This document shows, one piece after another, positions 3 through 7,146 of a stretch of 7,146 bases of DNA; the first letter of the stretch is position 1, and each line of letters begins with the position of its first letter. The stretch comes from an uncultured bacterium. Its GTDB lineage: Bacteria > CALINM01. A program made the translations under genes and the position numbers. The notes under the pieces were generated by a model that worked only from the letters and a program-made list of their open reading frames with translations, ran no database searches and was not told the DNA's origin. The stretch is taken from assembly GCA_938045315.1 (NCBI GenBank), contig CALINM010000122.1:1-7146 (forward strand), in the 5' to 3' direction.

Positions 3-734
3 ATACTTTTTAGAGATATTAGAACTGATGGGTTCAAGGAAGATTACTATAGATTAGCAAGTGAAATGGGTGTCAGATTTATTAGATTTGAACCCGAGAG
101 TAATTTAAATCCAGAAGTGGAAGAAATAATTAATGGAAATAAAAAAGAAATAGTTGTAAGGGTCTTTGATCAGGTATTACAAAAAAAATTAGAATTGAGA
201 GCAGATATTTTGGCTCTTGCTGCAGCTATCATTCCCAATGATGATGTTTTTGATGTTGCTGGCTTTTTTAAGGTCTCTACAAGTATAGATGGTTTTTTTA
301 AGGAAGCTCATGTAAAATTGAGACCAGTAGATTTTGGGACGGATGGTGTTTACCTTTGTGGTCTGGCACATTATCCAAAGTTTATTAGTGAATCTATAGG
401 TCAGGCCCTAGCATCGACAAGTAGAGCTGTTACGCTTCTTTCTAATGATACAATTTTTGCTTCCGGTTCTATATGTGATGTGGAAGAAAAAAAGTGTATT
501 GGGTGTGGTGCGTGTGAAGAAGTATGTGCCTATATGGCGATTGATTTATATAAAACTAGTAAGGGTATGAAAGCCAAAGTAAATCCAGTTCTTTGCAAAG
601 GTGATGGACTTTGTAATGCTGTGTGTCCAACGGGTGCAATACAGTTAAAACACTTTACAGACGATCAATTATCAAGTGAAATAGATAGCGTCTTTGAAAA
701 AAAAGAATCTGAGAACATTAGAAAGGTTGGATAA
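3..734 (+). CDS. hdrA: HdrA-like heterodisulfide reductase subunit A, C-terminal part (5' end outside window)
   Basis: The frame is open from the window edge, so the visible 243 residues are the C-terminal part of a larger protein. HdrA subunits are cytoplasmic FAD/iron-sulfur proteins that form the electron-bifurcating core of Hdr-type complexes. Family hallmarks seen are an RDIRT-x-GF-x-E-x-YY segment at the edge, EAH-x-KLRPVDF followed by TDGVYLCGLAHYPK, and a C-terminal ferredoxin-like domain. The first cluster motif is complete (Cys at fragment residues 165, 168, 171, 175). The second reads C-KGD-GL-C-NAV-CP (198, 201, 204, 208), with Asp where the second Cys is expected, so it may hold a 3Fe-4S or Asp-ligated cluster. 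The FAD-binding N-terminal half is not visible. The mvhD-like gene starts 62 bp downstream on the same strand, the usual partner arrangement. The in-frame ATG at 66 is internal, not the start. QmoA/QmoB-like proteins are relatives, but the C-terminal ferredoxin plus the MvhD neighbour favour HdrA. Confidence 0.9.
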   Translation: MLFRDIRTDGFKEDYYRLASEMGVRFIRFEPESNLNPEVEEIINGNKKEIVVRVFDQVLQKKLELRADILALAAAIIPNDDVFDVAGFFKVSTSIDGFFKEAHVKLRPVDFGTDGVYLCGLAHYPKFISESIGQALASTSRAVTLLSNDTIFASGSICDVEEKKCIGCGACEEVCAYMAIDLYKTSKGMKAKVNPVLCKGDGLCNAVCPTGAIQLKHFTDDQLSSEIDSVFEKKESENIRKVG

Positions 735-796
735 TATGTATATAGTTTATGAGGTTAAGTGATAAATAAGAATAAGATTAAAGAGTGGAGGTTTAC

Positions 797-1612
797 ATGA
801 ACATTAATTTTAAACCAAACATTGTTGGTTTTGTGTGTTACTGGTGAGGGTACGGAGCTGCAGATTTAGCTGGAGTTTCCAGACTACAATATACAAGTGA
901 AATTAGATTAATCAGGGTAATGTGTACTGGAAGGATTGATATGTCCTTCATAGCCCGTTCTTTTTATAATGGCGCGGATGGTGTTTTTATCGCTGGTTGC
1001 AGGTTAAATGAATGTAGTTATATAACTCATGGAAACTATTATGCTCTAAACATGACATTACTTTTTAAAAAGATTATGGAATATTTAGGAATAAGCCCAG
1101 AAAGAGTTCATATAGAGTTTATGACTTCCAGTGATGCGCAACATTTTGTTGAAACAGTTAATGATTTTACAGATAAAATAAGACTATTGGGTCCGTTGGG
1201 AGAAAGAGAAGGAATATCTGATGAAGAGATTAAAGCAAAGCTCTCAAAATTAATAAATCTTATCCCATATATTAAAATTGTAGAGAGGGATAGATTTAAA
1301 TTAAAGATTAATAATCCTGAGGAATGGGATAAAATTTTTACTATAGAACATGTAAGGGAACTATTTGATACCATCCCCTCATACTGGATTGATCCAGAAA
1401 AATGTGCTGCTTGTACTATATGCGCCCAAAGATGTCCAGTAGATGCCATAGAGGGTGGTAGAAATAAAATTCATGTAATAGATCAGGACAAGTGTATAAA
1501 ATGTGGCACATGCCTTTTAGTTTGTCCCACAAAGTTTAGTGCTGTAAAAAAACTTGTTGGCGAGCCAGTCCCTCCCCCCTTAGCAGAAGAAAAAAGGATT
1601 AAGGTTAGATAA
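797..1612 (+). CDS. mvhD: Selenocysteine-containing MvhD/FlpD-family iron-sulfur subunit fused to a 2x[4Fe-4S] ferredoxin domain
   Basis: This is a 271-residue protein if the in-frame TGA at 845-847 is decoded as selenocysteine. MvhD (FlpD) carries a [2Fe-2S] cluster and passes electrons from a hydrogenase or dehydrogenase to HdrA. The start at 797 has GGAGG at 787-791. Residues 14-17 read C-Y-W-U and are followed by GYGAADLAGVSRLQY, matching the family CNWC-x-Y-x-GAD-x-AG-x-SR motif with Sec replacing the second Cys. Family Cys residues follow at C43 (CTGR) and at C68 and C73 (AGC-x4-C-x-Y-x3-GN). The C-terminus adds two complete CxxCxxCxxxCP motifs (203/206/209/213 and 233/236/239/243). Codons on both sides of the TGA encode conserved family sequence in one frame, so a frameshift or true stop is unlikely. 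Sec is known in the VhuD homologue of Methanococcus species. The ATG at 920 is internal; starting there would remove the Sec motif. It lies 62 bp after hdrA, probably in one operon. Confidence 0.92.
867..886 (+). promoter_or_regulatory. Candidate bacterial SECIS hairpin for UGA recoding
   Basis: The RNA downstream of the in-frame TGA (845-847) can fold as UAGCUGG (867-873) pairing with CCAG-A-CUA (879-886). This gives seven base pairs with one bulged A at 883, closing a five-base loop AGUUU. Bacterial SECIS elements lie inside the coding region just after the UGA, present a small apical loop with a G in its first two positions, and place that loop roughly 16-37 nt from the UGA. Here 26 nt separate them and G is the second loop base. 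The fold was done by hand, and SelB binding is inferred. Confidence 0.65.
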
Positions 1613-3728: not shown

Positions 3729-6050
<2,322 letters not shown>

Positions 6051-6070
6051 TTCAAGCAAAAAATATTGAG

Positions 6071-6142
6071 TGGGCGATACTGGATTCGAACCAGTGACTT
6101 CTACCGTGTGAAGGTAGCACTCTCCCTCTGAGTTAATCGCCC
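6071..6142 (-). tRNA. tRNA-Val (anticodon CAC)
   Basis: The minus strand folds as a complete 72-nt cloverleaf. The acceptor stem GGGCGAT pairs with ATCGCCC plus discriminator A. The D-stem is ACTC/GAGT with GG in the loop. The anticodon stem CTACC/GGTAG closes the seven-base loop TTCACAC, so the anticodon is CAC, reading the valine codon GTG. The T-stem ACTGG/CCAGT closes the loop TTCGAAT. CCA is not encoded (ACTC follows), so it must be added by CCA-adding enzyme. The gene has its own promoter immediately upstream, and six T residues (complement of 6058-6063) follow the 3' end. Confidence 0.97.
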
Positions 6143-6154
6143 GAAACTACTTTA

Positions 6155-6183
6155 ATTGTAATTACAAGCTTTGGTTATGTCAA
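6155..6183 (-). promoter_or_regulatory. Promoter of tRNA-Val
   Basis: On the minus strand TTGACA (complement of 6178-6183), a 17-bp spacer and TACAAT (complement of 6155-6160) form a near-consensus sigma70 promoter. Transcription should start only about six bases before the mature 5' end of the tRNA at 6142. It is back-to-back with the cytochrome promoter. Confidence 0.88.
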
Positions 6184-6217
6184 TCATTTTAGAGTCTGTG
6201 AAGAAAACTTAAATTGA

Positions 6218-6246
6218 TTGACAAGTAGGTGATTTACAAGTAAGAT
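6218..6246 (+). promoter_or_regulatory. Promoter of the cytochrome c3-resB unit
   Basis: TTGACA (6218-6223), a 17-bp spacer and TAAGAT (6241-6246) make a good sigma70-type promoter. It fires away from the tRNA promoter, with 34 bp between the two -35 boxes. A start near 6253 would give a leader of about 30 nt, just enough to include the extended ribosome binding site. Confidence 0.82.
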
Positions 6247-6266
6247 TAAAAATTAAATCTTTAATT

Positions 6267-6278
6267 AAAGGAGGTGAT
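6267..6278 (+). promoter_or_regulatory. Extended Shine-Dalgarno sequence of the cytochrome gene
   Basis: AAAGGAGGTGAT is complementary over all 12 bases to the 3' end of standard bacterial 16S rRNA, with 9 nt between GGAGG and the ATG. Other genes in the window match over only 5-8 bases. This suggests very efficient translation of the cytochrome. Confidence 0.85.
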
Positions 6279-6283
6279 AAACA

Positions 6284-6613
6284 ATGAAAAGGTTAGCGGG
6301 CATAGTAACAGTAGTTTTCGCATTAGTAATTATTACAAGTGGCGTTTATGCAGCTGCTAAGGATACTTATGAATTCAAGGGCGGTACATTTGGAAAGGTA
6401 ACATTTAATCACAAAGCCCATCAGGATATGGGAATAAGCTGTCAGAAGTGCCATCACAAAGATGAAGCGGGTAAGGAGCAAGTTTGCAGCACCTGCCATA
6501 CAAAGGATTCAAAAGTAAAAGCAAAAGAGGCCTTTCACAACAGCTGCAAGAAGTGTCATGAAGAAGGCAAGAAGGGACCAACCAAATGTGGAGATTGTCA
6601 TAAGAAAAAATAA
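6284..6613 (+). CDS. Small periplasmic tetraheme cytochrome c3 (class III family)
   Basis: The 109-residue precursor has a signal peptide: MKR, a hydrophobic core (about residues 5-19) and a probable cleavage after VYA (23). The mature protein would be about 86 residues. Four heme-binding CxxCH motifs are present: 53-57, 68-72, 88-92 and 102-106. Distal histidines for bis-His ligation match the c3 pattern: H43 and H46 in VTFNHKAH, H58 directly after the first heme motif (CHH), and H85 in FHNSC. Class III cytochromes shuttle electrons in the periplasm between hydrogenases or formate dehydrogenases and membrane complexes. It is shorter than classical c3 and resembles triheme c7 in loop length, but four motifs and four spare His support four hemes. 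It has a strong promoter and ribosome binding site, and resB follows 68 bp downstream, a sensible partner for heme attachment. Confidence 0.94.
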   Translation: MKRLAGIVTVVFALVIITSGVYAAAKDTYEFKGGTFGKVTFNHKAHQDMGISCQKCHHKDEAGKEQVCSTCHTKDSKVKAKEAFHNSCKKCHEEGKKGPTKCGDCHKKK

Positions 6614-6633
6614 ATTTTGTTGCTTGGGGTTGG

Positions 6634-6655
6634 GGGAGGGTGAAGTAACCCTCCC
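6634..6655 (+). other. Stable GC-rich hairpin between the cytochrome gene and resB, no T-run
   Basis: GGGAGGGT (6634-6641) pairs perfectly with ACCCTCCC (6648-6655) around a six-base loop GAAGTA. No T-run follows, so it is not a standard intrinsic terminator. It may protect the 3' end of an abundant cytochrome mRNA, attenuate transcription, or mark a processing site that lets the cytochrome be expressed above resB. Upstream Gs (from 6627) make the segment strikingly G-rich. Confidence 0.65.
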
Positions 6656-6681
6656 ATATGATTAAATTTTAAGGAGAATTA

Positions 6682-7146
6682 ATGGTTTCTAATAAAAAGT
6701 TTGATATATGGGAATTTCTGGCATCTATTAAATTAGCAGTTTTTTTACTGATAATTTTAGCTATAACATCAATAGTAGGTACAATTATTCCTCAAAACGC
6801 CAGTTATGAAGAATATCTCAATAATTATGGATACATGTTAACACAAATAATAGATTTGTTAGAACTTTATGATATGTATCATTCCTGGTGGTTTATATTT
6901 CTTCTTGCAGTTTTTACCCTTAATCTAATAGTATGTTCCACAAAAAGGTTAAAACCACTTCTAAAACAAATTAAAAATCCAAAGAGAATTTTAGATAATG
7001 AGTTAGAAAAATCACTTGGTTTAATTGATGTAATTAAAAAAAGAGGCAACTTAGATTTATGGTCAGAGGCGTTAAAAAAACTTTTATATCCAAAATTTGG
7101 TTCGCCCTACGAAGAAATATCTCAAGATGTTTATCTTTATTATGAT
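6682..7146 (+). CDS. resB: ResB-like cytochrome c biogenesis protein, N-terminal part (3' end outside window)
   Basis: The frame is open to the window edge, giving 155 residues. ResB (Ccs1) is a membrane protein of System II cytochrome c maturation that, with ResC/CcsA, brings heme to apocytochromes outside the cytoplasmic membrane. The N-terminus matches the family: SIKLAVFLLIILAITSIVG (15-33) is the first membrane segment, followed by GTIIPQN (33-39). DMYHSWWF (64-71) leads into a second membrane segment (about 69-86) ending in LNLIVCS. A soluble, probably periplasmic, domain then begins. AAGGAG at 6671-6676 lies 5 nt before the ATG. It is probably read from the cytochrome promoter through the intergenic hairpin. 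A ccsA/resC gene would be expected next but is outside the window. Confidence 0.93.
   Translation, partial: MVSNKKFDIWEFLASIKLAVFLLIILAITSIVGTIIPQNASYEEYLNNYGYMLTQIIDLLELYDMYHSWWFIFLLAVFTLNLIVCSTKRLKPLLKQIKNPKRILDNELEKSLGLIDVIKKRGNLDLWSEALKKLLYPKFGSPYEEISQDVYLYYD

Follow-up and report, generated by a model that had tools for sequence, protein, structure and literature searches.

In the solved Hdr complexes, the subunit of the FlpD/MvhD type carries a [2Fe-2S] cluster that lies near HdrA's bifurcating FAD (PMC12350162). Selenocysteine (Sec) at the CxxU motif of this family (PF02662) is tabulated among the prokaryotic selenoproteins in a 2026 review (PMC13188914). In methanogens, the Sec-containing form is VhuD (PMC2933860). 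In bacteria, four Sec MvhD proteins (mvhD1, 2, 3, 5) were annotated in Desulfobacterium autotrophicum HRM2 in 2009 (PMC2702500), and Desulfococcus multivorans has one mvhD with a UGA and a SECIS (PMC5109826). The bacterial SECIS model describes a hairpin placed just 3' of the UGA, with a G in the first two loop positions, a spacing of 16-37 nt, an upper stem of 4-16 bp and an MFE of -7.5 kcal/mol or lower (PMC13188914). The archaeal SECIS elements are placed outside the coding region (PMC1088965), unlike the hairpin described below.

The window analysed here is a stretch of 7,146 bases that corresponds to an entire contig (C122) of a 1.86 Mb genome, assembled in 244 contigs and 92% complete. 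Judged by its sequence, one gene of this window almost certainly encodes a selenoprotein of the FlpD/MvhD family, in which UGA 845-847 would be decoded as Sec17 by means of a SECIS hairpin at 867-886. This reading is based on the open frame, on a TGA and a hairpin that are both conserved, and on the Sec genes of the genome. The features are collected in the table.

Features of the hdrA-flpD locus in the window (positions 5' to 3'; aa, amino acids)
Feature	Position	Strand	Description or basis
HdrA-like gene, 3' part	3..734	+	truncated at the 5' end, where the contig begins; open ORF with Fer4 domains; upstream partner of flpD
GGAGG, Shine-Dalgarno-like	787..791	+	five bases ahead of ATG 797; from sequence
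flpD-type gene, predicted selenoprotein	797..1612	+	271 aa with Sec17: FlpD domain (9-132) and C-terminal 2[4Fe-4S] domain
C14-Y-W-U17-G motif	836..850	+	sequence
TGA as predicted selenocysteine, residue 17	845..847	+	frame, Sec genes, G002 orthologue, homologues, hairpin
Bacterial SECIS hairpin, predicted	867..886	+	pairs 867-869/884-886, bulged A883, pairs 870-874/878-882, loop G875-U876-U877
Other conserved FlpD thiol codons	923..1015	+	C43 (923-925), C68 (998-1000), C73 (1013-1015)
C-terminal 2[4Fe-4S] ferredoxin-like domain	1385..1534	+	residues 197-246, Pfam Fer4

The initial annotation had joined the ATG at 797 and the GGAGG ahead of it to a long frame continuing past a lone TGA, and the frame is indeed open: between ATG 797 and TAA 1610-1612 (272 codons, + strand) the sole interruption is the TGA at codon 17. 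The context of this codon, VCYW-TGA-GYGAADLAG, places it at the second position of the FlpD/MvhD C-x-W-C motif, and the comparison of Sec and Cys homologues indicates that a Cys stands at this position in the latter. The PF02662 profile aligns across the TGA at residues 9-132 (E=5e-45, 152.9 bits against a cut-off of 22.3) and is covered in full (positions 1-123 of 123). The assignment of the TGA to the second Cys of the family motif is confirmed. The TGA-bearing motif occurs once in the window and in none of 200 shuffles.

A second genome of the same family and another genus (G002) contains an orthologue that is 79% identical and carries the TGA at the same codon; the match position is as in the public record JAOAGA010000038.1 (L096). 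When the comparison is restricted to degenerate codons of conserved amino acids, 15 of the 17 codons right after the TGA are identical between the two genes, compared with 86/189 in the rest of the gene (Fisher p=7e-4). No other stretch of 17 codons in the gene shows stronger synonymous constraint, and this one was picked once the alignment had been inspected.

The orthologue also bears on a rival reading, namely a pseudogene or truncated gene whose translation ends at 845 or begins again at ATG 920. Standard ORF calling yields 920-1612 alone, a protein of 230 aa, as had been anticipated. Nevertheless, the frame ahead of the TGA is kept back to the start codon between the two genera, and downstream of the TGA 100 codons differ synonymously and 52 with an amino acid change. 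A start at 920 would drop C14 and the residue at codon 17, both invariant in the aligned family, so that the redox centre is missed, as the initial annotation had pointed out. The truncated gene is thus very improbable, and the selenoprotein reading is retained.

The occurrence of the motif was surveyed with a DNA pattern for C-[NY]-W-U-x-Y-x-[GA]-A-D in approximately 85,000 species genomes, which gave at least 117 stretches, with 80 loci listed. Among the matches listed, 79/80 CxWU loci are FlpD by phmmer (E<1e-5), and the phyla represented include Thermodesulfobacteriota, Bacillota, Actinomycetota, Gemmatimonadota, Eisenbacteria, Planctomycetota, Acidobacteriota, Zixiibacteriota and others. 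Of the 290 genomes in a broad sample, 58 contain the Cys pattern and 9 the TGA pattern. A tree of 133 FlpD domains, built on few columns (124) and with weak deep forks, nests the window gene inside a group in which 103 of the 104 rows are Sec; its neighbours are genes from Syntrophaceae and Syntrophorhabdaceae. Several variants of the Sec genes were also seen. At L147, two Sec flpD genes are placed in tandem (L147:1217-2044 and L147:2179-2943), one with a 2[4Fe-4S] tail and the other in a 255-aa form. At L069, L087, L090, L112, L169 and L172, the Sec FlpD frame closes about 50 codons past the first TGA. The readthrough count for L087, L090, L112, L169 and L172 is one further stop within the domain, and the sequences suggest that this stop may be a second Sec near residue 68, like in the two-Sec VhuD.

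The conservation of the TGA in G002 and in the 79 FlpD loci among the matches listed rules out chance. It also weighs on the proposal that the gene is a Cys-type FlpD whose TGT or TGC became TGA through an error of sequencing or assembly. The assembly is fragmented into 244 contigs and a paralogue elsewhere in the genome carries a frameshift and a stray TGA, both of which would agree with an error. On the other hand, the identical TGA in an independent genome refutes it, the listed FlpD loci share the codon, the region downstream shows a SECIS-like constraint and the Sec genes are present. The probability left to an error is close to nil.

The window hairpin, which was absent from the initial annotation and adds to its case for Sec, has its GUU loop 27 nt past the UGA and comprises 8 bp with one bulge. 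It agrees with the bacterial SECIS model, at -7.6 to -7.9 kcal/mol once the initial nucleotides are omitted or the pairing of the core is imposed. On its own, the 54-nt RNA favours a competing fold (-12.1 vs -7.9 kcal/mol with the SECIS core forced) that requires bases 854-859. When the first nine bases past the UGA (848-856) are omitted, the SECIS pair probabilities are about 0.75-0.98 and the SECIS fold dominates. A ribosome with the UGA in the A site would roughly occupy 848-856, and may therefore favour the SECIS fold.

Of 73 distinct Sec sequences, 68 contain the SECIS core, against 8.1 expected from synonymous codon resampling at matched GC. Considering all loci, the core is found in 97/106 distinct TGA-bearing FlpD genes vs 4/35 TGT/TGC genes; in these counts the related sequences are non-independent and the Cys comparison genes are drawn from a different sample. 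The stem occurs in two registers, CUGG/CCAG at +23..+26/+32..+35 and, in a second group of genes, CUCGC/GCGAG at +19..+23/+31..+35. G+28 and U+29 lie in the loop in both registers, each in 71/73 sequences. Within L059-L175 (+19..+39), the G-U that reaches the loop is the same in both registers and belongs to a Val codon. The two registers explain why RNAalifold returned no structure for the 73 pooled sequences. At Rfam gathering thresholds, no SECIS was found in the window, the only hit being one tRNA. The first fold, computed from 56 nt starting at the TGA (z = -0.93), was a non-SECIS structure and was discarded; the cross-gene comparison revealed the real hairpin.

The machinery for Sec insertion is encoded in the source genome: selA, selB, selC and selD, the genes that the initial annotation had proposed to look for, were all found. 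The tRNA-Sec scores 70.2 bits against an Rfam cut-off of 47 and is also called by ARAGORN, with anticodon TCA (UCA). In profile searches, SelB, SelA and SelD score 358, 513 and 316 bits, with cut-offs of 242, 268 and 125, respectively. A single TGA also lies in frame within selD; its context, GUAAK, is the known UxxK site. A complete formate dehydrogenase (Sec) was sought in the genome and only fragments below the cut-off were found; consequently, the Sec genes seen in this genome are two, selD and flpD. A genome-wide reassignment of TGA (to Trp or Gly, codes 4 or 25), or its decoding as Cys, is left open by the frame, which by itself does not fix the identity of the residue, but has a negligible probability: the six other genes whose ends lie in the window are free of in-frame TGA and all terminate with TAA, the TGA falls on a Cys position of the FlpD family and nowhere else, and tRNA-Sec(UCA), SelA, SelB, SelD and a SECIS-like hairpin are present.

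The gene is placed in a two-gene hdrA-flpD unit. Its neighbours are hdrA and cspA in the window, and hdrA and an unrelated opposite-strand gene in G002, where the HdrA-like orthologue directly upstream of flpD is complete (951 aa). No mvhA/mvhG or other hydrogenase genes stand beside flpD in the window or at the G002 locus, and bamB-D and bamG-I are missing from the window and from the surroundings of the G002 orthologue. The identification as MvhD therefore holds at the level of the FlpD/MvhD family and of the HdrA partner. It does not extend to a canonical MvhD or to a hydrogenase context, since the protein is a fusion of FlpD with a 2[4Fe-4S] tail, adjoins hdrA and has no hydrogenase genes as neighbours. 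A FlpD-type, HdrA-associated Sec protein is a more exact name. At 5370-6062 on the - strand, the window also contains the remains of a gene resembling, by eye, the formylglycine-generating sulfatase-modifying family, split into several frames.

A separate Bam-like cluster with a Cys-type FlpD paralogue, containing AOR, an Fe-S protein, HdrA, FlpD and a CCG protein, is found on G000:C54 (L216, ~5850-6693) and L002. In this paralogue the frame shifts near codon 36, a TGA stands in frame at a position that is not a Cys, and Ser replaces Cys in a ferredoxin motif; the HdrA neighbour of the paralogue also seems to have lost cluster cysteines. These defects are decay or assembly errors.

Regarding the fold, the predicted model of the FlpD domain consists of blocks mostly at pLDDT 90-97 and matches solved MvhD/ElpC chains with target TM of 0.91-0.96 (0.93 for 5odh_D; 0.93-0.96 for 5odh_D and 8rvu_F). 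The sequence search retrieves the same MvhD/ElpC chains and, in addition, chain K of 9sfi/9t1s. In this chain, one X (non-standard residue) coincides exactly with position 17 and another with the C68 position, the query of one of the searches being approximate in its first residues; the X is probably Sec. The residues C14, U17, C43, C68 and C73 are invariant across 40 aligned Sec homologues. The 2[4Fe-4S] C-terminal tail is common to 38/104 homologues by a simple motif count. Homologues that lack it have mostly about 250-285 aa, and those aligned show a Cys-poor tail that is helix-turn-helix-like by eye.

In the mechanism proposed, the hairpin just 3' of the UGA would recruit SelB with the Sec-tRNA(UCA), the UGA would be decoded as Sec17 and translation would continue to TAA 1612. 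Then, by analogy with the solved relatives and given the conserved thiol positions, the FlpD domain would carry a [2Fe-2S] cluster a short distance from the bifurcating FAD of HdrA, the partner encoded just upstream, and relay electrons between this cluster and redox partners, whereas the C-terminal 2[4Fe-4S] domain would probably supply extra relay clusters. Sec17, with C14, C43, C68 and C73, would be placed at the cluster end of the fold, either as a ligand or as a redox-active neighbour of the cluster. Direct ligation of the [2Fe-2S] cluster by Sec17 is a tentative proposal and rather unlikely. If true, natural Fe-S clusters with a selenolate ligand would occur at the entry to HdrA-type bifurcating complexes in the widespread bacterial Sec-FlpD family, whose members have ferredoxin or helix-turn-helix-like tails. 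The altered redox or exchange properties that the initial annotation attributed to a Sec at the cluster are a reasonable proposal.

Compared with the known systems, Sec in this gene is a further case of something already known. The precedent of the methanogen VhuD, invoked by the initial annotation, stands, and is not the limit of the phenomenon, as Sec at this position is known in bacteria too. The knowledge of Sec in MvhD/VhuD is therefore unchanged by this gene. What is gained is the corrected annotation of one gene, in which standard callers truncate away two of the five conserved thiol positions, and the conservation of the SECIS in Sec-FlpD across many bacterial phyla, shown by the Cys comparison set and the synonymous-constraint test.

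The methanogen MvhD/ElpC subunits of Hdr complexes (5odc, 7bkb, 8rvu) have the same fold over residues ~5-135, with 41-46% identity, but contain Cys in place of Sec and lack the C-terminal ferredoxin domain. BamF of the class II benzoyl-CoA reductase of Geobacter metallireducens is likewise a FlpD-type subunit encoded with an HdrA-like protein, BamE; however, it is annotated with an HTH tail (PMC1924859), whereas the window protein has a 2[4Fe-4S] tail and its gene has no bamB-D or bamG-I genes beside it. The Sec VhuD (9sfi/9t1s chain K) shares the FlpD fold, the Sec at the second position of C-x-x-U and the HdrA partner, and differs in its size (~134 aa), the lack of a C-terminal ferredoxin domain, the second X at the C68 position and the hydrogenase partner; a solved structure now exists for VhuD. 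The deltaproteobacterial Sec-MvhD of D. autotrophicum and D. multivorans are, like the protein described here, bacterial selenoproteins of the same family encoded by genes that adjoin hdrA (PMC2702500; PMC5109826).
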